Source: Acidimicrobiales bacterium
GTDB lineage: Bacteria; Actinomycetota; Acidimicrobiia; Acidimicrobiales; UBA8592
NCBI GenBank assembly: GCA_022425805.1
Contig: JAKMEQ010000089.1
Span: 1 to 64,000, forward strand
Direction: 5' to 3'
Length of the DNA: 64,000 bases
The notes below the pieces were generated by a model. The model had not been told where the DNA came from. It saw only the letters and a list, made by a program, of their open reading frames with translations, and did not search any database. Below are positions 35,475-49,269 of the stretch, piece after piece. The number at the start of each line of letters is the position of its first letter. Position 1 is the stretch's first letter. The position numbers were made by a program, and so were the translations under genes.

Positions 35475-36611
35475 CTACGCTGGAACTGGGACATCTTCGT
35501 CGAGAGAGAATGCTTCGTATTCTTGTCCTGTGTCTTCGAGGTGCTCAAATTCAATAACACCTATTTCCGTAAAGCGGTCACGGAGCCAACCATCACCAGC
35601 ATCAAGTAAGCCAAGTTTTTTGCAATTTGGTACGATCTTAGAGAATAGCAATTGCTGAAAAATTTGATCTTCTTCAGGAATATTCAATCCATGCTTGACC
35701 GCTTTTTTGACATCGCAACCCATACGATCCCAAACTTCTTGCTGTAATAGACGATCCCTCATTCGAACTCCAGCTTCGAAAGCAAACTCTTGGCGTTCCA
35801 GAACTTCTGCCGACGTCATATCCGCATAGACCTCTTGAAGACTTAGAACCCCGAACGCAACATGACGTGCCTCATCGCTCATCACGTAACGTAACAGTTT
35901 CTTCAAAAGAGGCTCTGTGGTCACTTGATGCATTAATCCAAAAGCTGCCAGCGCTAAGCCTTCGACCATGATTTGCATTCCCAGATAGGTCATATCCCAA
36001 CGACTGTCATTGATTATGTCATCAAGCAGAAGTTGCAAATGAGGATTAACTGGGTAACGAACACCAACTTTTTCATCTAGGTATTTTTCGAACACTTCAA
36101 CATGACGGGCTTCGTCTACAACTTGGGTAGCGGCGTAATATTTGGCATCAATCCAAGGAACAGTTTCGACAATCTTTGCCGTGCAAAGTAGCGCACCTTG
36201 TTCACCATGTTTGAATTGTGAGATTCTCCAGCCGAAAGACTCAAGACTAAATTGTTCCCATTCTTTGTCTCCCCAGTTTCGAGCGGGAGAATCGGGATGC
36301 TCCGTCCAATGCCCTGTATTGACTTCAGATGATTCCGTGAAGATATTAAATGCTCGGGAAGGGTCAACCTCAATGCTCCAGTCAAGATCGGTCTGAGCGT
36401 TCCATTGGGAAACCTTTGCTTTTTCATAGAGTTTATCTAACCGCGGGCGGGACCCTTTCTCATAATCCCAGGTAAAAATCGCTTCTGCCTGATCTTCAAC
36501 TGCATGCATGACTTCATCAGGGTCAGCGTTGAAAGCGGATATTGCATCAACATCGTCAAGGGAAGCCCTATCAAGGATCTCTTGGTCATTACGGATTTCT
36601 GCTGTGGTCAT
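35475..36611 (-). CDS. Ferritin-like di-iron protein (AurF/desaturase-like)
   Basis: 378 residues. A ferritin-like di-iron core can be traced: a first glutamate helix near FKHGEQGALL, the second DEARHVEVFEKYL, a third with MVEGLALAAFG, and a fourth with SDEARHVAFG; the two E-x-x-H motifs are the hallmark. Members of this class are oxygenases, desaturases or N-oxygenases; the actual reaction cannot be read. The start codon overlaps the TetR stop by one base (TAATG), so the regulator gene and this gene are one unit. Confidence 0.82.
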   Translation of the reverse strand: MTTAEIRNDQEILDRASLDDVDAISAFNADPDEVMHAVEDQAEAIFTWDYEKGSRPRLDKLYEKAKVSQWNAQTDLDWSIEVDPSRAFNIFTESSEVNTGHWTEHPDSPARNWGDKEWEQFSLESFGWRISQFKHGEQGALLCTAKIVETVPWIDAKYYAATQVVDEARHVEVFEKYLDEKVGVRYPVNPHLQLLLDDIINDSRWDMTYLGMQIMVEGLALAAFGLMHQVTTEPLLKKLLRYVMSDEARHVAFGVLSLQEVYADMTSAEVLERQEFAFEAGVRMRDRLLQQEVWDRMGCDVKKAVKHGLNIPEEDQIFQQLLFSKIVPNCKKLGLLDAGDGWLRDRFTEIGVIEFEHLEDTGQEYEAFSLDEDVPVPA

Positions 36612-37192
36612 TATTTATCTCCTACTGTCGTTGGTAACGCTGATGAAATCACTCGGTCGATAACGACCTGCCATTCATCGGGTGCGGGTGTGGGTGTATC
36701 AAGTGTTCGAAAGATCGTAAATCCAAGACTTATGGCCTGCGCAAATGTAACTATGGATGCAGTATCAATGGAGTTGTCAATTTGACCATCACTTTTAGCT
36801 TCTTCGATAATTTTTGCTAATCCCATACCTTCATCTTCTAGTTTACGACTCATCATTTCAGACATCTCACTATCTCGACGGCTAGCCACAACCGCTTCGA
36901 GAAAGAGTGGATCTTCATCTCCGTGCTGATCAAGGAGATGGGATCCTAACGTTGAGAGCAAGTCCGCTGGCGAGTTATGTTCTGAGCTAGAAAGAATGCT
37001 CTCCAAATGGTCACCCACTCTTGAATCAAGCACATCAAATAGAAGTTCAGACTTCCCTCGGTAGCGACTATAGATTGCTCCAGTCGTAACTCCCGCTCGG
37101 CGCGCAATCTCTGCTACACCGGCACCATCGTATCCTCGTTCTGCAAAGACCTCTGCTGCTGCCGTAATTAGACGTTCATCCGTTGATTCCAT
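36611..37192 (-). CDS. TetR-family transcriptional regulator
   Basis: 193 residues from the ATG at 37192 (GAGGT about 10 bases upstream); a TTG at 37216 is the alternative. The helix-turn-helix is complete: ERLITAAAEVFAERGYDGAGVAEIARRAGVTTGAIYSRYRGKSELL, with the variable ligand-binding domain after it. It most likely controls the di-iron gene downstream and itself through the 20-bp palindrome 30 bp before its start. It is divergent from the BMP lipoprotein gene, which could also be under its control. Confidence 0.9.
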   Translation of the reverse strand: MESTDERLITAAAEVFAERGYDGAGVAEIARRAGVTTGAIYSRYRGKSELLFDVLDSRVGDHLESILSSSEHNSPADLLSTLGSHLLDQHGDEDPLFLEAVVASRRDSEMSEMMSRKLEDEGMGLAKIIEEAKSDGQIDNSIDTASIVTFAQAISLGFTIFRTLDTPTPAPDEWQVVIDRVISSALPTTVGDK

Positions 37193-37221
37193 AGATTTTG
37201 CTACCTCAATGTGCAAACTGG

Positions 37222-37381: not shown

Positions 37382-39460
37382 ATGTTAAAAAAATGGAAGC
37401 TGATCGTCGCCCTTTTGGCGATCTTCGGTATGTTTGCTGCTGGTTGCGGTGGCGATGACGACGATGCAAGCAGTTCAAGTTCAGCTGGCGATGATGTTAC
37501 TGCCGGCCTTGTCTATGACATCGGCGGCCGAGGAGACCAGTCATTTAATGATTCAGCAGCAGCTGGTATTGAAAGAGCAAAAAACGAACTGGGGATAGAG
37601 TTCACAGAAGCTTCTCCAAACGATGATGGCTCTAACCGTGCTGAACTCCTGCAATTACAAGCTGACAACAACCCTATAGTTATAGCTGTTGGATTCTTAT
37701 TCGCCGGAGATGCTGCAACTGTTGCTGCGAATAACCCAGATACGAACTTTGCTGTTATTGATGACGCGATGATGGACTTTGACGCCGGTGGACCGCTGGC
37801 TCAAAATGCAGCAGGATTGACCTTCGCCGAACACGAAGGGTCGTTCCTAGTTGGAGCAGCTGCAGCACTCAAGAGTGACACAGGAACTATTGGATTCATC
37901 GGTGGCGTCTGTTGCTTCGGCCTTATTGAAAAATTCGAAGCCGGATATACAGCAGGAGCAAAAGCTGTAAATCCTGACATTAAGATCATTCCCCAATACA
38001 TCACAGAATTCCCAGACTTTGACGGATTCAACGCTCCAGACCGAGCAAAAGAAATTGCTCTAGCGATGTACAACGAAGGAGCAGATATCATCTACCATGC
38101 TGCCGGCGGTGCCGGAGCTGGACTTTTTGAAGCTGCAAAAGAAGTCAGCGAAAGCTCAGGTTCAAAAGTTTGGGGTATCGGCGTTGACTCTGACCAGTAC
38201 AACACCGTTGACGCTTCCGTACAGGAATATGTACTTACCTCAATGCTCAAGCGAGTTGACACTGCTGTTTACCTAGCGATCAAGTCTCAGGTTGATGGAA
38301 CTTTCACTCCTGGACAGACTGCTTATGGCTTATCCGATGATGGCGTTGGGTACTCTACCACTGGTGGTTACCTCGACGATATCGTCACACAATTAGAAGC
38401 TTACAAAGCAGACATTATCGCCGGAAACATTGTGGTACCTAGCACAATGGAAGCTCCGACCAGCGATGTTAAAGCTGCATTTCTTTATGTAGGCCCCCCC
38501 GGAGATGCGGGGTGGACTTGGGCTCACGACGAAGGTCGTAAATGCGCTGAAGCCGCTACTGGAGCGGAGACAGCCTACGTTGAGTCTGTTCCAGAAGGAA
38601 CAGCAGACTTTGCGAATTTCGCTAAAGACTTCATAGACCAGGGATATAACGCGATTATCGGAACTTCGTTTGGCTACATGGATGCTATGGAAGCCTTAGC
38701 AACCGAATACCCAGACGTCGTGTTTGACCATGTCTCTGGTTATAAGAACAACGGAACAAACTTTGGAAATACCTTCGGGCGCATGTACGAACCTCGTTAC
38801 CTATCAGGAATCGTGGCCGGCTCTGCAACCACTTCAGGACAAATCGGCTATGTTGCCGCCTTCCCGATACCAGAGGTGATACGAGGAATTAATGCCTTTA
38901 CCCTTGGTGTTAGAAGCGTAAATCCTACTGCGACAGTTGAAGTGAACTGGACAAGCACATGGTTTGACCCAGCAGTTGAAGGTGACGCCGCTCAAGCACT
39001 AATCGATGCAGGTGCTGATGTCATTGCAATGCATCAAGACTCAACAGCTGCCGGCGACAAAGCAGAAGCTGCTGGAGTTCGTTGGGTTTCCTATAACTCA
39101 GACATGAGCGCATTTGCTCCAAATGCATTCCTCACAGCCCCTGTGTGGGATTGGTGCAACCGATATACCCAGATCATCCAACAGGCAGGTGATGGCACCT
39201 ACGCTGGTGGTGCTTGGTGGGGATCGATGGCCGATGGTGTCGTTGATCTAGCTCCAATCGCTGGTGACGTATCCGGAGACATCAAAGATCTAGTTGCGGA
39301 AAAGAAAGCGGCCATTATCGATGGTAGCTTCCACCCCTTTACTGGCCCTATCAATGCCCAAGATGGCAGCGTTCTTGTTGCCGATGGTGAAACCATGGAC
39401 GATGGTGCCATGCTGGGAATGATGACCTTTGTTGAGGGCGTCATTGGTTCAACAAGCTGA
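37382..39460 (+). CDS. Double-headed BMP/PnrA-type nucleoside-binding lipoprotein (two fused binding domains)
   Basis: 692 residues, about twice the usual length. A lipoprotein signal ends at Cys22 (FAAGC) and an Asp/Ser-rich tether follows. Domain 1 (about 40-352) is PnrA-like: LVYDIGGRGDQSFNDSAAAG, FAVIDD, EHEGSFLVGAAAAL, GFIGG. Domain 2 (about 362-692) is a second complete BMP domain of a different subtype: AFLYVGPPGDAGWTWAHDEGRK, ESVPEG, TSFGYMD, YEPRYLSGIVAG, AAFPIPEVIRGINAF, SYNSDMSAF. A nine-residue Pro/Ser linker joins them, with no stop or frameshift. BMP proteins bind purine nucleosides or bases and feed ABC permeases. GGAGGG is 4 bases before the ATG. Two full transporters follow, suggesting that each head serves its own or either transporter. 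Confidence 0.93.
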   Translation: MLKKWKLIVALLAIFGMFAAGCGGDDDDASSSSSAGDDVTAGLVYDIGGRGDQSFNDSAAAGIERAKNELGIEFTEASPNDDGSNRAELLQLQADNNPIVIAVGFLFAGDAATVAANNPDTNFAVIDDAMMDFDAGGPLAQNAAGLTFAEHEGSFLVGAAAALKSDTGTIGFIGGVCCFGLIEKFEAGYTAGAKAVNPDIKIIPQYITEFPDFDGFNAPDRAKEIALAMYNEGADIIYHAAGGAGAGLFEAAKEVSESSGSKVWGIGVDSDQYNTVDASVQEYVLTSMLKRVDTAVYLAIKSQVDGTFTPGQTAYGLSDDGVGYSTTGGYLDDIVTQLEAYKADIIAGNIVVPSTMEAPTSDVKAAFLYVGPPGDAGWTWAHDEGRKCAEAATGAETAYVESVPEGTADFANFAKDFIDQGYNAIIGTSFGYMDAMEALATEYPDVVFDHVSGYKNNGTNFGNTFGRMYEPRYLSGIVAGSATTSGQIGYVAAFPIPEVIRGINAFTLGVRSVNPTATVEVNWTSTWFDPAVEGDAAQALIDAGADVIAMHQDSTAAGDKAEAAGVRWVSYNSDMSAFAPNAFLTAPVWDWCNRYTQIIQQAGDGTYAGGAWWGSMADGVVDLAPIAGDVSGDIKDLVAEKKAAIIDGSFHPFTGPINAQDGSVLVADGETMDDGAMLGMMTFVEGVIGSTS

Positions 39461-39525: not shown

Positions 39526-41055
39526 GTGATTACCCTTCTAGATATGAGCTCACCTACACCACCTGCAGTCAATCTTGTTGACGTTTGGAAACGTTTCCCT
39601 GGTGTTGTAGCGAATGCCGGAGCGACATTAAGCGTTACTGAGGGAACCATCCATGCTGTTTTGGGTGAGAATGGGGCAGGGAAATCTACCCTGATGAATG
39701 TCCTGTCTGGCATGTACCGTCCCGACTCTGGAGAAATTCAGATTAAAGGACAACAGTTCTGGTTTCGCTCCCCGGCAGACGCTCTCGCTGCTGGAATTGG
39801 AATGGTTCACCAAGAGTTCCGCCTTATTCCTTCGTTCACAGTGGCTGAAAATGTGGTACTAGGAGCCTCTGAAAGAATACTACGCCGATCATCGATAGAA
39901 GCACAGGTCGGTGACGTAGCTAACGAATTTGGTCTAAAAATTGACCCTACCCGACCGGTATGGCAACTCTCCATGGGAGAACGACAACGTGTCGAAATCC
40001 TCAAATCTCTTTGGCGGAATGCACAGATTCTCATCTTGGATGAACCTACAGCTGTCCTTACACCATCAGAGGCTAATGAGCTGGGGACTGTCTTACGTGA
40101 AATGGCAAATTCTGGACGTTCAATAATTTTTATTAGCCACAAACTCCATGAGGTCAAAGAGTTCTGTGATGAAGCTACTGTCCTTCGAGGTGGAGAAACT
40201 GTCGCAGCGTCACTCCTCGTTAAGGATACCGATACTGTGAAACTTGCTGGATTAATGGTGGGTTCTTCACCTTCCACCATTAGTAGGCCAACACCCCAAA
40301 GCCAGGGAACGCCTTTACTCACGGTTAGTGGGATAGGAGCGCTCGATGACCGATTCCTTCCTGCTATACAAGATCTGAACCTCACTGTCCACGGTGGAGA
40401 AATTGTCGGGATCGCTGGGGTATCTGGTAACGGACAAAGAGAAATAGCTCAGGTGATCGCTGGCCTTCGGCCCGTAACTTCAGGCAAGATAATTATTAAC
40501 GGAGAAGACCTTACGAATGCTCTTCCAGTTGAGCGTTTCAGAGCCGGCTTAGGGTATGTTCCTGAAGACCGACTCGGTGTCGGTTTAGCACCTCGATTAA
40601 ATATTATTGAGAACGCTATTCTACGAAATTACCGAAACCTACGTCAGGGACCACTTCTGGCCGAGGAACGAATGAGGACCTATTGTGAGGATATTATTAA
40701 CCGTTTTGGAGTGCGCTCCGGCCTTTTGGGGGATCCAATAGCTGGTCTGTCTGGAGGTAACCTGCAACGGCTCTTGGTTGGACGGGAATTGAGTGGAAAC
40801 CCCAAAGTTTTAGTTGCTGCTCAACCTACTAGAGGGTTGGACGTGAAGGGAGTAAAGGCTATTCAAGATCTATTAGTAGCCGAACGGTCTGATGGAGTGG
40901 CTATTCTGCTCATCTCCGAGGACCTTGATGAGCTCCTTACTCTCTCCGACCGGTTACTCGTAATGCATGAGGGGATGATAGTGGGCGAATTTGATCCGAC
41001 CACCGCCAAACGCCATGACATTGGAGCAGCTATGGCGGGAGAAGTGGCAACATAA
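39526..41055 (+). CDS. BMP-family ABC transporter double ATPase, first system
   Basis: 509 residues from GTG (503 if the ATG at 39544 is used); neither start has a clear ribosome site. Two fused nucleotide-binding domains as in RbsA/NupO-like proteins. Domain 1: Walker A GENGAGKST, MGERQRVEI, Walker B ILILDEPTAVL, H-loop FISHKLHE. Domain 2: degenerate Walker A GVSGNGQRE, LSGGNLQRLLVGREL, VLVAAQPTRGLD. It drives nucleoside-type import with the next two permeases. Its stop overlaps the first permease start (TAATG). Confidence 0.93.
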   Translation: MITLLDMSSPTPPAVNLVDVWKRFPGVVANAGATLSVTEGTIHAVLGENGAGKSTLMNVLSGMYRPDSGEIQIKGQQFWFRSPADALAAGIGMVHQEFRLIPSFTVAENVVLGASERILRRSSIEAQVGDVANEFGLKIDPTRPVWQLSMGERQRVEILKSLWRNAQILILDEPTAVLTPSEANELGTVLREMANSGRSIIFISHKLHEVKEFCDEATVLRGGETVAASLLVKDTDTVKLAGLMVGSSPSTISRPTPQSQGTPLLTVSGIGALDDRFLPAIQDLNLTVHGGEIVGIAGVSGNGQREIAQVIAGLRPVTSGKIIINGEDLTNALPVERFRAGLGYVPEDRLGVGLAPRLNIIENAILRNYRNLRQGPLLAEERMRTYCEDIINRFGVRSGLLGDPIAGLSGGNLQRLLVGRELSGNPKVLVAAQPTRGLDVKGVKAIQDLLVAERSDGVAILLISEDLDELLTLSDRLLVMHEGMIVGEFDPTTAKRHDIGAAMAGEVAT

Positions 41056-42128
41056 TGGGCCGCCTTGTTCTGGTTCGTAGAGACCAAGTTCTTCAGGGCG
41101 GACAACCGCTTGCCTTCCTCATCGGCATATTCTCCGCTCTGCTAATTGGGATCTTGTTATTAGCCGTTTCTGGACATGATGCTTTAGCCGTCTATGAGCG
41201 CATGTTCGATGCTTCGATAGGAAGTAGCAAAGCATGGTCTCTTACCCTAAACAGAGCTGTGCCTCTCGGATTAGCAGGTTTGGCAGTAGCGGTCGCAGGA
41301 AGAATGGGACTGTGGAATATCGGGGCAGAGGGGCAAATACTTGCTGGAGCAATGATGGCCGCTTGGGTTGCGCGGATCGGCGAAAGTTGGCCCAGTCCTC
41401 TTCTGATTACGGTCATGCTCTTAGCAGCAGTTTTAGGAGGGGCCCTACTGGGGTTAGGACCTGCTGTAGCTCGAGCACAGATTGGAGTAAACGAGATCAT
41501 TACTACATTGATGCTCAACGAAGTTGCGCTTCGAATGCTCCAATGGTTAATTCATGGGCCATGGAAAGATCCAGAATCACGGGGCTTCCCTCTTGCACCA
41601 ATTTTACCCGAGGGGGCACGACTTCCGGGACTATTCCAACAAGCTCATTGGGGGGCAGTGATAGCTCTTTTGGTAATCATCTTGTTCGGTTTGGTAGCAA
41701 GCAGAACCGCGTGGGGATACGAGTTACGCGTAGCTGGTTCTTCTGGTGCGACCGCACTATATGCTGGAATTTCCCTCAAGCGAAAAATCTTAACGGTTCT
41801 TGTATTAAGTGGAGGGATTGCTGGACTTGCAGGAGGAATTGAACTCTCGGGTAGTTCAGACCGAATAGTTGAGGGCATATCGGGTGGATATGGTTTCGCA
41901 GGGATCATCGTCGCAGCGCTCGCGCTCATGCGTCCTTCTGGAGTAGCTGCGGTGGCGTTACTTTTCGGAGCTGTACAGGTAGGAGGGCTAAGTATCCAGA
42001 CAATGGGTGTTTCATCTTCTGTCTCCACCATCCTTCAAGCCCTTATTCTTTTTGGTGCAATCGGAGCCGGCGTATTCAGTCGATATTCCGTAAAACGGGT
42101 TAGTAAAGAAAACCAGGAGGTCCAATGA
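41055..42128 (+). CDS. BMP-family ABC transporter permease 1, first system
   Basis: 357 residues, BPD_transp_2 fold with about 9-10 membrane segments. LNRAVPLGLAGLAVAVAGRMGLWNIGAEGQILAG is the family's conserved second and third segment, and NEIITTLMLN is the coupling-helix motif. It overlaps the ATPase by one base and the next permease by 4 bp. Pairs with permease 2 to form the channel. Confidence 0.92.
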   Translation: MGRLVLVRRDQVLQGGQPLAFLIGIFSALLIGILLLAVSGHDALAVYERMFDASIGSSKAWSLTLNRAVPLGLAGLAVAVAGRMGLWNIGAEGQILAGAMMAAWVARIGESWPSPLLITVMLLAAVLGGALLGLGPAVARAQIGVNEIITTLMLNEVALRMLQWLIHGPWKDPESRGFPLAPILPEGARLPGLFQQAHWGAVIALLVIILFGLVASRTAWGYELRVAGSSGATALYAGISLKRKILTVLVLSGGIAGLAGGIELSGSSDRIVEGISGGYGFAGIIVAALALMRPSGVAAVALLFGAVQVGGLSIQTMGVSSSVSTILQALILFGAIGAGVFSRYSVKRVSKENQEVQ

Positions 42129-43057
42129 GCGAAGCCTCGATGATTGGTTTACTGAGTGCAGCTGTTTCCTTTGGGGCGCTGTTGTACCTCGCTGCCCTTG
42201 GAGAACTGATTTCGGAAAAAGCAGGCATCTTAAATCTTGGCGTAGAAGGAATGATGGCAGTGGGGGCAGTAACAGGATTCATGGTTGCTCTAGAAACTGA
42301 GAATGCTTGGGTTGCACTCTTGGCTGCGATGCTCGTCGGTGCCCTATTCGCCCTAATCCATGGATTTTTCACTGTTGTTCTTGGAGCGGAACAAGTGGTT
42401 TCCGGATTATCACTCACAATTCTTGGTCTTGGGGCGTCGGCCTTCGTAGGAAAGAATGCTGTCGGTAAACCCTCAGGAGCTGTTCTCGCTTCTGTTGATT
42501 GGGGGCCACTTTCAGATATTCCTTGGGCAGGTCCGATTCTCTTCTCACAGTCGCCATTAGTTTATTTTGCTATTCTCGCTGGATTAGCTGCCGCTTTCGT
42601 ACTTACGAGAACTAGTACTGGCCTTGCCCTACGAGGGGCTGGTGAATCAGCATCAACCGTAGATGCGGCGGGTCATTCTGTAGTTCGGCTTCGGCTCGGC
42701 GCAATCGCAACAGGTGGGGCGTTAGCGGGGGCATCAGGGGCTTACCTAACACTCAGTCTCACGCCTCAGTGGACCGAAGGGGTAACTGCCGGAAGAGGTT
42801 GGATTGCAGTAGCCTTAGTCATTTTCGGGGCATGGCGGCCTGGAAGATGCGCCGTTGGAGCGCTCTTATTCGGGGGCTTACTTGCGCTCAAATCTCGACT
42901 CCAAACCTTCGGGGTCGACCTTTCACCAATCTTGCTTTCCATGATTCCGTATCTGCTAACCATTGGCGTATTAATAGTGATTTCAATTCGAGCGAGACAT
43001 CGACCCTCATCTGCGCCCGCTGCCCTTGGGCAGGCCTACCGAAGAGAAGAAAGATAG
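42125..43057 (+). CDS. BMP-family ABC transporter permease 2, first system
   Basis: 310 residues, the shorter partner. LYLAALGELISEKAGILNLGVEGMMAVGAV is the conserved motif, GAEQVVSGLSLTILGLG the coupling segment, and ATGGALAGASGAYLTLSLTPQWTEG the later conserved loop. It closes the first transporter unit. AGGAGG lies just before the start, inside the previous gene. The 352 bp that follow hold a binding-protein relic and an inverted repeat. Confidence 0.92.
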   Translation: MSEASMIGLLSAAVSFGALLYLAALGELISEKAGILNLGVEGMMAVGAVTGFMVALETENAWVALLAAMLVGALFALIHGFFTVVLGAEQVVSGLSLTILGLGASAFVGKNAVGKPSGAVLASVDWGPLSDIPWAGPILFSQSPLVYFAILAGLAAAFVLTRTSTGLALRGAGESASTVDAAGHSVVRLRLGAIATGGALAGASGAYLTLSLTPQWTEGVTAGRGWIAVALVIFGAWRPGRCAVGALLFGGLLALKSRLQTFGVDLSPILLSMIPYLLTIGVLIVISIRARHRPSSAPAALGQAYRREER

Positions 43058-43211
43058 TTGCGTATTTCGAAAGAGTCCGCATGTGTTGCATCAGCCAATA
43101 CATTTTTATCTACTTTGCCTATCTAGATGAGTGCGGGGCCAGTGCGCCGACTAGCATGTTGTCCCAAGTCAAGAAATCTTTCGACAGCTATTCACCATGT
43201 GGAGAGAAATA

Positions 43212-43277
43212 ATGCGCAAAAAATTGAAGCTAGTTGTCGTCCAAAAGGGGGCCTTTGGCATGTTTGCCACTGGTTGA
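43212..43277 (+). pseudogene. Relic of a BMP lipoprotein gene: ribosome site and signal peptide only
   Basis: An ATG at 43212 opens MRKKLKLVVVQKGAFGMFATG and then meets TGA. The intact gene at 37382 reads MLKKWKLIVALLAIFGMFAAG then Cys. The two DNA stretches align without a gap for about 65 bases, and similarity continues upstream into the ribosome site (GGAGAGAA versus GGAGGGAA). The stop replaces the lipobox Cys codon; two more in-frame stops follow. Nothing that looks like a binding domain remains. The relic occupies the position where the second transporter's own binding-protein gene would be expected. Confidence 0.8.
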
Positions 43278-43320
43278 GGAGACTATGAGTAGGTGCAAAC
43301 AACTATCTTGCATCTGCTAA

Positions 43321-43390
43321 AACGAGTGAGGCTGATCCTTCCCCCTGCTAGGAAATCTAGATAGGGTGTGGGATATGAGTCTCACTCGTT
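43321..43390. promoter_or_regulatory. Exact 10-bp inverted repeat with 50-nt spacing before the second ATPase gene
   Basis: AACGAGTGAG (43321-43330) and CTCACTCGTT (43381-43390) are perfect reverse complements, with two more pairs possible inside after a wobble. A long stem-loop would end 20 bases before the GTG of the second ATPase gene. It could be a leader structure or two operator half-sites. Confidence 0.4.
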
Positions 43391-43409: not shown

Positions 43410-44945
43410 GTGGCTTCAGCCATTGAACTCATAGGTATTACGAAGAGATTCCCGGGAGTCTTAGCGAATGACAACGTTAACCTGACCGTTGAAGAAGGTG
43501 AAATACATGCCGTGTGTGGTGAAAACGGTGCCGGTAAATCAACATTGATGAAGATCCTCTACGGCATGCAACCCCCTGATGAAGGAACTATGAGAATCTT
43601 TGGAGAAGAGCGGGTTTTCAACTCTCCGAACGAAGCTATCGACATAGGGATAGGCATGGTCCATCAACATTTTATGTTGGCGAACCAACTGACTGTTCTA
43701 GAAAACGTAATACTGGGCGCCGAACCCACTAAAAAGGGCGGGCTTATCGACTTTAATAAAGCAAGTGCCCATCTTGATGAAGTAGGGAAAGCCTACGGCT
43801 TGACTGTTGACCCATTTGATTTAGTTGAGAGCCTTGCCGTCGGTGAACGACAGCGGGTAGAAATCATCAAGGTGCTTTTTCGGGGTGCGAAAATTCTTAT
43901 TTTCGATGAACCCACTGCGGTTCTAGTCCCTCAAGAAGTTGAAGAGCTCTTTCGAAATATGCGAGAACTTAAAGCGAATGGCGCAACTATTATTTTTATT
44001 GACCACAAGCTCGAAGAAGTCCTCGAGATTGCTGACACAATAACAGTCCTCCGACAGGGACGAACTGTAGAAACGGTTAAGCCCGCTAACGTTTCGGCAG
44101 CATTTCTCGCAGAGTTAATGGTCGGGGCCGAGTTACCGAAACCTCAACTTACTGCTGCGAAACCTGGTGAGGCGATCGGCATAGAGCTAAATGAGGTCAC
44201 GGTTCTTGACAGTGATGAACGGCCAATTGTCGATAATGTCTCGTTGAAGGTTCGACAGGGAGAAATTCTCGGTATCGCTGGTGTAGAGGGTAACGGCCAG
44301 CACGAACTTGTTGCCGCTATTCTTGGAACGACGAAAACTGAAACAGGGCGGATCGCCTTAATGGGGAATGACATTATCAATAGTTCCGTTCGGCAGCGGC
44401 GTGAAAATGGTCTTGGGTATATTCCTCAAGACCGTCAGGAGGAAGGTCTTCTTCTTACAGCACCACTTTGGGAGAATGCAGCTTTGGGGCATCAAACATC
44501 GAAGCCTTTTTCTGGCGGATGGCGTCAATGGTTTATAGATAGAGGGGGATCTCGGTCCCAAACGGAACGGATACGAAAAGAATATGATGTTCGGACTCCA
44601 AATGTTGAAGTTTCCGCGCATGCTTTATCTGGCGGAAACCAACAGAAACTCATCGTCGGCCGAGAGATGGTATCTGAACCTTCAGTTCTCGTAGCTTCAC
44701 ATCCAACGAGGGGTATCGATGTCGGGGCGCAAGCTGCTGTTTGGAAACAAATCCGTGAGGCCCGATCAAGGGGGCTTGCGACTCTCCTTATCTCTGCTGA
44801 TTTGGATGAACTTATCGGATTGTCGGATGTGATCGTAGTCATGTTCCGAGGTCGTGTTGTCGCTAAGCTCGATCCATCTGAAATTACTCCGAGGAGCCTT
44901 GGTGCGTATATGACCGGTGCAGCATTGGAAGAGGGCGCCGAATGA
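43410..44945 (+). CDS. BMP-family ABC transporter double ATPase, second system
   Basis: 511 residues from GTG, well supported by AAGGAG 7 bases upstream. Domain 1: Walker A GENGAGKST, HQHFML Q-loop segment, VGERQRVEI, Walker B ILIFDEPTAVL, FIDHKLEE. Domain 2: GVEGNGQHELV, PQDRQEEGL, LSGGNQQKLIVGREM, VASHPTRGID. It is a paralogue of the first ATPase but more typical of nucleoside systems. Its stop overlaps the next start by 4 bp. Confidence 0.94.
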   Translation: MASAIELIGITKRFPGVLANDNVNLTVEEGEIHAVCGENGAGKSTLMKILYGMQPPDEGTMRIFGEERVFNSPNEAIDIGIGMVHQHFMLANQLTVLENVILGAEPTKKGGLIDFNKASAHLDEVGKAYGLTVDPFDLVESLAVGERQRVEIIKVLFRGAKILIFDEPTAVLVPQEVEELFRNMRELKANGATIIFIDHKLEEVLEIADTITVLRQGRTVETVKPANVSAAFLAELMVGAELPKPQLTAAKPGEAIGIELNEVTVLDSDERPIVDNVSLKVRQGEILGIAGVEGNGQHELVAAILGTTKTETGRIALMGNDIINSSVRQRRENGLGYIPQDRQEEGLLLTAPLWENAALGHQTSKPFSGGWRQWFIDRGGSRSQTERIRKEYDVRTPNVEVSAHALSGGNQQKLIVGREMVSEPSVLVASHPTRGIDVGAQAAVWKQIREARSRGLATLLISADLDELIGLSDVIVVMFRGRVVAKLDPSEITPRSLGAYMTGAALEEGAE

Positions 44946-46069
44946 AACGTGAAACATTCCGTCAAATAGCTCTTGCTTTAGCGGCTCCAGTTGCCGCTGT
45001 TCTTTTTGCCTCGATTGCTTCCTCTATCTTCCTCCTCATTGCGGGAAGTAACCCGTTTACAGCTTATGGAGACATGTTCGAATATGGGAGCAAGCTAGAG
45101 ATTCAGGTTGATATTCTGAATCGAGCCACTCCGCTATATATTTCTGGTGTCGCCGCTGCGATTGGCTTCCGTATGAACCTATTCAACATCGGCGTTGAAG
45201 GTCAATACCGGCTAGCCGCTATCGTGGCTGCCTATGTAGGGGCTTCAGTATCGTTACCCGCAGTTTTCCATGTCGCCTTAATACTATTGGTCGCCATGCT
45301 TGTCGGAGGCGCATACGCCGGTGTCGCCGGTGTACTCAAGGTGACACGCGGAGTGAACGAAGTTATTTCAACTATTATGCTGAATGCTATAGCGATCTCT
45401 GGACTCATCGCATGGCTTGTCAGAGAATGGCAAGCAGGCGGGAAAGTTGACTCAACTGGAGCAAACCTAGGGGTCGGAACTGAACCCATTGACGAATCTG
45501 GGCTTATTCCGAATATCAATAGTTGGCTCGAAGTGTTCACACGTGAAATTGGGAAAGGGAAAGAGCTGACCGGAATTCTGCTCGTTGCAATTGCGGTTGG
45601 AGTTCTTTACCACATTCTTATAAATCGGACTCGGTTTGGGTTTGACCTTCGGGCAACAGGGATGAACCCGTTTGCGGCTCGAGCGGGAGGTGTCCCCGAT
45701 AAGCGAATGGTCCTCGGAGCTATGGTACTTTCTGGGGTTGTTGCTGGGCTCGTTGGAATGGGAGAAATTGCGAAACTTGGAAGGTTTAGTCCAAACTTTG
45801 TCGGAGGGCTCGGGTTCGCAGGTATTGCTGTTGCTCTTCTTGGAAGAAACCATCCTGGTGGAATTGCAATCGGAGCACTCCTTTTTGCCTTCCTTGACAC
45901 CGCTTCCGGAGTTCTGCAGGTAACTGGATCGGCTTCTCGCGAGATCGTCTTTATCATGCAGGGAATAATTCTCCTCGCTGCCGTAATCGCCTATGAGGTT
46001 GTTCAAAGGTTCCGTATACGAGAGGAAGCTCGGCTTGCATCAGCTCTGCTAGCAGAGGAAACTACATGA
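44942..46069 (+). CDS. BMP-family ABC transporter permease 1, second system
   Basis: 375 residues, about 9-10 membrane segments. ILNRATPLYISGVAAAIGFRMNLFNIGVEGQYRLAAI is the family motif and GVNEVISTIMLNAIAI the coupling helix. A polar insert (about residues 160-200) lies between two segments, absent from the first system's permease. It is coupled at both ends by ATGA overlaps. Confidence 0.93.
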   Translation: MKRETFRQIALALAAPVAAVLFASIASSIFLLIAGSNPFTAYGDMFEYGSKLEIQVDILNRATPLYISGVAAAIGFRMNLFNIGVEGQYRLAAIVAAYVGASVSLPAVFHVALILLVAMLVGGAYAGVAGVLKVTRGVNEVISTIMLNAIAISGLIAWLVREWQAGGKVDSTGANLGVGTEPIDESGLIPNINSWLEVFTREIGKGKELTGILLVAIAVGVLYHILINRTRFGFDLRATGMNPFAARAGGVPDKRMVLGAMVLSGVVAGLVGMGEIAKLGRFSPNFVGGLGFAGIAVALLGRNHPGGIAIGALLFAFLDTASGVLQVTGSASREIVFIMQGIILLAAVIAYEVVQRFRIREEARLASALLAEETT

Positions 46070-47328
46070 TGCTGGCGACCCTTAGCCGCATCAGGCAGCT
46101 TCCTACTTGGGCGAGATGGGCTTCATTTGCAACGATCGGAGTGCTTGTTCTGACCCTCGTACAGGAATTAGGACGAAACGATACAAGCCACCTTACGGCG
46201 ATGACAACCTCCCAAACAGCACTCCGGTGGAGTATCCCCATCCTGCTTGCAGGGCTTGGCGGACTTTTCGCTGAGAGAGCAGGAATTATCAATATTGGCT
46301 TAGAGGGAATGATGATCCTTGGGACATGGTTTGGCGCATGGGGCGCTTTTAACTACGGCCCATACTGGGGAATCATCATCGGTATCATTGGTGGCGCTAT
46401 TGGGGGGCTTATCCATGCTGTTGCGACCGTAGGCTTCGGAGTTGACCATATCATTTCTGGCGTTGCTATCAATATTTTGGGTCCATTCGCAGCCCGTTTC
46501 TTATCATCCGAGATTTTTACGGGATACCAGGGGGGTTCGGTTACCCAATCACCGAGAGTAGAGCATGTTGACAGATTTACGGTCCCGTTTCTCGCAGGTG
46601 GTTACGATACACCTAATTTTTTGAGATGGCTTGGTGACAAGGATATTCCGCTGATTAGCGATCTTAGCAATATCTCAAGAGGGGTCTTTACCCAAACGTC
46701 TTGGGCGACGATAGCCGCATTGTTACTTGTCCCCTTCTCCGCGTGGATACTATGGCGTACTCGGTTCGGTCTGCGTGTACGAATCAGTGGAGAAGACCCA
46801 TGGGCAGGTGAATCGCAAGGTGTCAACATATACCGCTACAAGTTCATAGCTGTGATGATAAGTGGGGGATTTGCTGGGTTCGGCGGAGCATTTATCGCTA
46901 TCGAGATGTCTTCTATCTACCAGGAGGGAGGAACAACGGGTAGAGGGTTTATCGGCTTAGCAGCTCTCATCTTCGGCAATTGGAGACCAGGGGGTATTCT
47001 TGCGGCTGCTTTACTCTTCGGATACCCCTATGCCCTTCAATTTGGTGACTTTGATGGCTTCGCTTCACATGCCTTACTTCTAGTCAACGCTGTCGCTCTC
47101 ATCGGGGTAACAATTTGGGCGATGCGGAAAAATAAGCGAACAGATGCTTGTATCGCATGTATTCTCGGTGCTCTTTCAGCAACGTGGTATTTCACCTCTG
47201 ATACAGTGCCAGACTGGTGGGTGAAGATCCTTCCTTATGTTATTGTCATCGTCGTCTTAATTTTCTTTGCCCAACGTTTACGAATGCCAACAGCAAACGG
47301 ACAAATCTATCGACGAGGGCAAACATAG
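46066..47328 (+). CDS. BMP-family ABC transporter permease 2, second system
   Basis: 420 residues, about 110 more than permease 2 of the first system. LAGLGGLFAERAGIINIGLEGMMILGTWFGAW and VDHIISGVAINILG are the family motifs. The extra length comes from an extended N-terminal segment, a loop around residues 160-205, and two extra C-terminal hydrophobic segments. The PhyH-type gene starts 5 bp after its stop. Confidence 0.92.
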   Translation: MMLATLSRIRQLPTWARWASFATIGVLVLTLVQELGRNDTSHLTAMTTSQTALRWSIPILLAGLGGLFAERAGIINIGLEGMMILGTWFGAWGAFNYGPYWGIIIGIIGGAIGGLIHAVATVGFGVDHIISGVAINILGPFAARFLSSEIFTGYQGGSVTQSPRVEHVDRFTVPFLAGGYDTPNFLRWLGDKDIPLISDLSNISRGVFTQTSWATIAALLLVPFSAWILWRTRFGLRVRISGEDPWAGESQGVNIYRYKFIAVMISGGFAGFGGAFIAIEMSSIYQEGGTTGRGFIGLAALIFGNWRPGGILAAALLFGYPYALQFGDFDGFASHALLLVNAVALIGVTIWAMRKNKRTDACIACILGALSATWYFTSDTVPDWWVKILPYVIVIVVLIFFAQRLRMPTANGQIYRRGQT

Positions 47329-48195: not shown

Positions 48196-49269
48196 ATGTT
48201 CGATACGAAAATTTTGCGTTCCGCTCCCAAGGTATTGCTCCACGATCATTTAGACGGGGGATTGCGTCCAGCGACGGTCATAGATATTGCACGCCGGATC
48301 GGGTATCGCAAACTTCCGTCCTACGTCGAAGGAGAACTTGCATCTTGGATGGTGGCTACGGCAAGCCGTGGGAACCTCGAACTCTATCTGGAGGGATTTA
48401 CTCATACTCTCTCGGTCATGCAAACAAGAGAGTCCCTTTTCCGCGTAGCTGCAGAATGCGCAGAAGATCTCGCTAGCGATGGGATCATCTATGCTGAAAT
48501 CCGATTTGCTCCAGAGCTTCACCTTCGCGATGGTCTAACCACGGACATGGTGCTCGACAGTGTTCTGGCTGGCTTTGCTGCTGGTTCAGAGGGAACAGGG
48601 ATACGAGTTCAGCTATTGGTATGTGCTATTCGGTCCCACGCGAGAAGTAAGGAGATGGTGGAACTTGCCTTACGCTTTCGAAACAAGGGCGTCGTAGGGT
48701 TTGATATCGCAGGGTCAGAGATCGGCTATCCGCCGATAGGTCATCAAGAAGCATTTAATCTCGCTATAGACAATGACTTTCCTATCACTATTCACGCTGG
48801 AGAAGTAGGCGGTTCTGAATACATTGAACAGGCAGTGACGAAATGTGGAGCAACCCGTATTGGTCATGGTCTGGGCCTCAGAGATAACATTTTCAAAAAC
48901 TCTGATGGGGAGCACTATTTGGGCAGTCTCGCTTCATTGATTTTAGAAAAAAAAATCTCTTTAGAGATGTGCCCTACTTCAAATGTCCATATTGGAGCGG
49001 TTCGGTCTATTGATGAACATCCTATTGACAGTTTCCTTCGGTTAGGGTTATGTGCGACAATCAACACGGACAACCGGCTCATGTCTCAGACAAACCTTAG
49101 TGAAGAAATCGAAATGTGCAGTCTTGCTTTCGGGTGGCACTGGGATCAATTCCATATGCTCATGGAAAACGCAGCAAACAGTTCGTTCTTACCATCTGAT
49201 CAGAAACTAGAAATTCTTTCAATATTGTCACAATGGCATTCCAACCAAACAGTGAACGAAGAAAACTGA
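48196..49269 (+). CDS. add: Adenosine deaminase
   Basis: 357 residues. Zinc and substrate residues are in place: LLHDHLDGGLRP with His16 and His18, HAGEVGGSEYI (His and catalytic Glu), RIGHGLGLRDN, PTSNVHIGAV and INTDNRLMS. The product is inosine from adenosine. This is the direct link between the transporters upstream and purine nucleoside breakdown. It begins 24 bp after the dioxygenase and ends 2 bp before the HAD phosphatase. Confidence 0.95.
   Translation: MFDTKILRSAPKVLLHDHLDGGLRPATVIDIARRIGYRKLPSYVEGELASWMVATASRGNLELYLEGFTHTLSVMQTRESLFRVAAECAEDLASDGIIYAEIRFAPELHLRDGLTTDMVLDSVLAGFAAGSEGTGIRVQLLVCAIRSHARSKEMVELALRFRNKGVVGFDIAGSEIGYPPIGHQEAFNLAIDNDFPITIHAGEVGGSEYIEQAVTKCGATRIGHGLGLRDNIFKNSDGEHYLGSLASLILEKKISLEMCPTSNVHIGAVRSIDEHPIDSFLRLGLCATINTDNRLMSQTNLSEEIEMCSLAFGWHWDQFHMLMENAANSSFLPSDQKLEILSILSQWHSNQTVNEEN

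Follow-up and report, generated by a model that had tools for sequence, protein, structure and literature searches.

The window, as the whole 64,000-nucleotide stretch of DNA under analysis is called here, contains at 37382-39460 of its forward strand a gene for a two-headed BMP lipoprotein of 692 amino acids, identified through ORF calling, Pfam and a profile search of the genome. The frame has no internal stops, and PF02608 (Bmp) matched the encoded chain twice, for a summed Pfam score of 357.7 bits; in the genome search, the halves scored 182.8 and 182.3 bits, each above the curated cut-off of 24.1 bits, and both inside one 721-codon frame. No third PF02608 place was found in the window's genome, the assembly of which is 74% complete, such that another BMP gene could be missed. 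The chain begins with its single signal peptide (MLKKWKLIVALLAIFGMFAAGC; 37382-37447, forward strand), in which the bacterial lipoprotein motif ...GMFAAGC occupies residues 16-22 and supplies the lipobox Cys22. An acidic and serine linker leads from there to the N head, of the PnrA-like nucleoside type (residues about 39-356; 37496-38449, forward strand), assigned through Pfam, sequence matches to structure databases and pocket alignment. The joint of the two heads (38450-38464, forward strand), located by comparison with the end of the free N-type gene and the mature C-type start in relatives, is a few residues long (...VVPSTME-APTS-DVKAAF..., within ...VVPSTMEAPTSDVK...), and is followed by the C head, of the AtzT/3S99 purine-base type (residues about 362-690; 38465-39451, forward strand), assigned through sequence and Foldseek matches. 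The open reading frame, the two PF02608 places and the 28% identity between the N and C heads bear out the original prediction of 692 unbroken residues with one lipobox and two complete BMP domains of different subtypes, and confirm a real two-headed substrate-binding lipoprotein. Whole-chain structure prediction, proposed at the same time, was informative in part: the AlphaFold model (671 residues, built from seven sequences) had a modest mean pLDDT of 54, with the C half better, and its Foldseek matches were the same structures as those found by sequence, led by 3S99 and AtzT, while the placement of the two heads relative to each other was not given.

Downstream on the same strand are two complete ABC cores, each comprising an ATPase and two permeases, which the first reading of the sequence had missed. 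Core 1 (39526-43057) consists of an ATP-binding subunit (39526-41055; Pfam, NCBIfam and locus comparison), which pairs with the C-type gene in sister species, and permeases at 41055-42128 and 42125-43057 (both Pfam and locus comparison). Core 2 (43410-47328) consists of an ATP-binding subunit (43410-44945; Pfam, NCBIfam and locus comparison), which is the partner of the N-type gene in both sister species and sister genera, and permeases at 44942-46069 (Pfam and locus comparison) and 46066-47328 (locus comparison and domain search). The same cluster contains an adenosine deaminase (48196-49269, forward strand; 439.1 bits against an NCBIfam cut-off of 412) and, further on, a pseudouridine-glycosidase-like gene (Pfam Indigoidine_A) and a uracil phosphoribosyltransferase. 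A TetR-family regulator (36611-37216, reverse strand; Pfam) is divergent from the fused gene, and is adjoined by an AurF-like di-iron oxygenase (35475-36611) that is retained at this position across the whole genus and its sister genera. In a scan for promoters and terminators, promoter-like matches were at the shuffle mean, and no terminators were found.

The two receptors are encoded separately in the relatives of this marine actinobacterium. The order C-type gene, core 1, N-type gene, core 2 is found in seven sister species (G002, G005, G010, G012, G015 and G017, and partly in G003, where the contig is short), with each receptor gene directly preceding its own core, and in genomes from other genera of the family (G018, G019) a single N-type gene lies between the TetR and AurF genes and core 2. 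As the separate-gene species came out as the sister group of the window in a tree of the flanking genes, with support of 95/95, separate genes are likely to be the ancestral state. Where the sisters carry the N-type gene, the window has 352 bases left between its two cores, and these contain a scar of the former gene (43114-43345, forward strand), recognised by its matches to N-type leaders and flank, with a leader, a decayed signal peptide and a 3' flank, from which the ligand-binding domain is absent. The 5' part of the scar (from about 43114) is 81% identical to the leaders and signal-peptide starts of free N-type genes over 95 bases (E 2e-19; E 1e-19 in a second comparison), its signal peptide reads MRKKLKLVVVQKGAFGMFATG and then a stop, and positions 43321-43345 match the sequence directly behind the stop codon of the free N-type gene (flank AACGAGTGAGGCTG.TCCTTC). 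The leader of the fused gene instead matches those of C-type genes (73% over 184 nt, E 2e-22), and at the joint the final sense codons known from the free N-type gene (...VPSTME) run into the beginning of the mature C-type protein (...SDVKAAF). The scar at the old place, the C-type leader and the position of the joint together show, as far as sequence comparison reaches, that the C-type gene received the mature N-type domain between its signal peptide and its own domain, either by a move or by copying with later loss of the free copy. Our guess at the route is a duplication followed by a deletion through similar leaders, which gains support from the N-type genes with C-type-like signal peptides in G002 and G012.

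The heads differ in the ligands they would be expected to hold. Sequence searches placed the N head nearest the Lbp, PnrA/TmpC and BmpA structures; for the C head, the closest structures were 3S99 and AtzT. The PnrA positions D238 and K260 reportedly contact the ribose. In the alignment, PnrA pocket residues D27, F36, F186, D238 and K260 correspond to D46, F55, F216, D269 and K290 of the N head, comprising the base-stacking phenylalanine pair and the base and ribose contacts; D27 and F186 are among the residues named for the PnrA pocket (PMC7093131). Hence the N head should bind nucleosides. Nine pocket residues of AtzT were taken from a published account (PMC6834077), and at the aligned positions the C head is identical to the Brucella protein 3S99, in which adenine was modelled, at all nine, including His551 and Asp553, whereas only four of the nine (S, F, E and W) are identical to AtzT, in which Tyr45 stands in place of Trp, and Asn218 and Asn220 in place of the His and Asp of 3S99 and the C head. 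Because its pocket matches that of 3S99 throughout, the C head probably binds a purine base rather than a nucleoside, with adenine our best guess as the first candidate. The original description of two nucleoside-binding domains consequently holds for the N half, which keeps the PnrA pocket, and probably does not for the C half, which has the look of the purine-base type. The NCBIfam name of putative B6 ABC transporter substrate-binding protein (NF047927) was rejected for the fused chain, which scored 132.6 bits where more than 400 are required.

The reading we favour, and consider probable, is that a free N-type domain was inserted into the C-type gene, the free copy was lost, and one anchor came to feed both cores. 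As the comparison of loci shows, a mature domain of the nucleoside type entered the neighbouring gene of purine-base type between lipobox and domain, and the free copy was then lost, perhaps by some such recombination route as that suggested above. The chain would be exported and held by one lipid anchor, with the N head delivering nucleosides to core 2, and the C head delivering a purine base, perhaps adenine, to core 1; that each head docks independently on its ancestral core is the best-supported arrangement. A single expressed anchor could thereby feed two importers at a fixed 1:1 stoichiometry, near adenosine deaminase and other nucleoside-related genes, and the presumed benefit would be this fixed receptor ratio, together with a single secretion and lipidation event. 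The suggestion of one anchor serving two substrate classes, already made when the gene was first noticed, fits all findings, including the different pockets and the two cores.

Four other explanations were weighed against this reading. It is unlikely that both heads serve core 1, with the N head broadening its substrate range, and core 2 either using another receptor or being lost. There is a precedent for such an arrangement in GlnPQ, which carries two distinct binding domains on one translocator (PMC8025302), and no receptor gene of core 2's own is left in the window, but the frames of core 2 are fully open and conserved to much the same degree as in those sister species that retain its receptor, and the ancestral partners of the heads are different cores. 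Still less likely is that two similar heads raise the density of receptors at one transporter, as would follow from the alternative first proposal of a higher local concentration: this would suit the homotypic BMP-BMP tandems seen in a different family of the class, the copies of which are 93-100% identical and accompany a single core, whereas the heads in the window are 28% identical, have different pockets, and precede two full cores, each of which has its own head beside it in sister species.

The relocation itself was observed in one of the 18 sampled species of the genus and in one assembly, with no second contig carrying the fusion found. This rarity is what might be expected of a transitional state, in which one head is unused and drifting within the fused chain, yet we regard this as very improbable, given that both pockets are complete and both halves have low dN: dN/dS is 0.03-0.04 for the C half, and for the N half dN is 0.09-0.11, with dN/dS values of 0.035 and 0.073 where computable, dS being saturated in most comparisons. 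Dependence on a single draft assembly, in a genus in which repeated heads do break contigs, could likewise point to a chimera of two gene parts made in assembling the metagenome bin, and a sequencing error joining two adjacent genes had been feared from the outset. However, the joint is in frame and exactly at the domain ends, and the genes of the relatives are not adjacent, but lie about 3.5 kb apart, with three ABC genes between them, in the reverse order, and it is a decayed scar, rather than an intact gene, that occupies the old place. The scar, in combination with the in-frame N-type domain in a C-type gene, argues for a real relocation rather than an assembly error, to which we assign only a very slight probability.

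Other receptors of the genus are also two-headed. In four sister species (G001, G006, G014 and G016; L101:6942-9236, L097:4173-6458, L094:14493-16946 and L104:9498-11840), as well as at contig ends in G007 and G011, a single frame at the same site encodes a signal peptide, a domain X and an N-type BMP domain; core 2 is downstream of these genes in the draft genomes of the four species, and core 1 is absent from the loci. In the window's own genome and G015, X is a separate lipoprotein gene directly behind an ATPase and a permease of NitT/TauT type, and because of this gene context, together with a weak profile match, X very probably serves that pump as its binding protein. In the drafts of the same four species, the ATPase and permease persist (L175-L178) with no binding protein adjoining, and X was seen in fused chains only. 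G016 also has X fused to a LivJ-type protein behind livG-livF-livH-livM (L157:7289-9769); an X tail precedes LivJ in G013 (L184), the contig is cut behind livM in G011 (L188), and G011 also holds an X frame with no partner in view. Domain X had no significant match in PDB or Pfam. Its assignment to NMT1/THI5 (PF09084) was rejected, as the cut-off was missed and one of 11 members matched, at E 0.22, while profile-profile comparison with NMT1 gave the weak match (E 1.5e-4, probability 52%, over 111 N-terminal columns); a model of X from one sequence, with a pLDDT of 33, was discarded.

Further combinations comprise fusions of a LivJ-type head with an NMT1-type protein in G002 and G004 (L218:6398-8800), as well as in G012, where the contig is cut, and a LivJ-LivJ fusion in the window's own genome (L235:1046-3715) and G014; no core of origin was located for the LivJ head. 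The X-BMP, X-LivJ, LivJ-NMT1 and LivJ-LivJ fusions suggest that two-headed receptors are a habit of the genus. In G010 (L237:3772-6234), a LivJ-type head forms the C-terminal end of a chain whose unrelated remainder spans about 430 residues and contains repeats. Several contigs break off within or next to shared heads, in G011 (C47, C82 and C21), G013 (C16 and C28) and G014 (C17 and C42), as if near-identical copies of heads within one genome break assemblies. Whether the habit has a common basis is a nearly even call, which we place slightly on the doubtful side: substrate-binding domains may be portable heads in this genus, inserted behind the conserved signal peptides of other receptors, with the shared leader and signal peptide as the recombination handle, and the resulting two-headed lipoproteins may serve ABC cores that are encoded elsewhere and whose own receptor gene has been lost.

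Importers are usually viewed as having one receptor per core, or a receptor fused to the core that it serves. With heads for two different cores, and the scar still visible, this free lipoprotein is a natural experiment on the matching of receptors to importers. Three questions thereby become accessible to experiment: can a head on a tether work with a core that is encoded at another place, do fixed ratios of receptors bring an advantage to a streamlined marine cell, and are signal peptides the handles by which domains are shuffled? There are two warnings for annotation as well, in that assemblies seem to be broken by repeated heads, and that where no receptor gene adjoins an ABC core, a different protein may carry the head that serves it.

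Tandem fusions of BMP domains are not common in the genomes sampled. A profile of the joint, searched against 397 Actinomycetota genomes and 399 of the phylum of Clostridium, gave a joint-spanning match in the window only; of 62 loci that a sequence search of the GTDB collection yielded, none had both BMP types in one frame, viral contigs held no relative, and searches of open-licence papers found none describing a free two-headed substrate-binding lipoprotein. Long open frames in high-GC relatives (L138-L144) were rejected as fusions, as stop-to-stop frames are long by chance there (1047 codons in L138). Tandem BMP-BMP frames were present in at least seven of 296 genomes of the class, among the matches listed, all from one other family and outside the samples of 397 and 399 genomes.

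Comparison with known systems separates what is familiar in this chain from what is particular to it. The nucleoside receptors of PF02608 (PnrA/TmpC, Lbp, BmpD and BmpA) share the fold family and pocket residues of the N head, and AtzT (6PI5) and 3S99 share the sequence and fold match of the C head, with the nine pocket residues in the case of 3S99, but all of these are single-domain proteins, lipoproteins in the case of the nucleoside receptors. The two-headed chains of the same genus (L101, L157, L218 and L235) likewise have a second head inserted behind the signal peptide, but include heads of other substrate-binding protein families. The homotypic tandems, at the six loci read (L131, L132, L133, L134, L136 and L137), also have two BMP heads and one lipobox, but there a proline-rich linker joins the near-identical copies, where the window has dissimilar heads. 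GlnPQ also has tandem binding domains of different specificity (SBD1-SBD2) in one chain, fused to the transmembrane subunit of its own single translocator (PMC8025302), whereas the permeases in the window are separate genes. The idea of tandem binding domains is therefore itself known, from both GlnPQ and the homotypic tandems; the fused chain is instead a pair of different binding heads on a free lipoprotein, encoded before two transporters.
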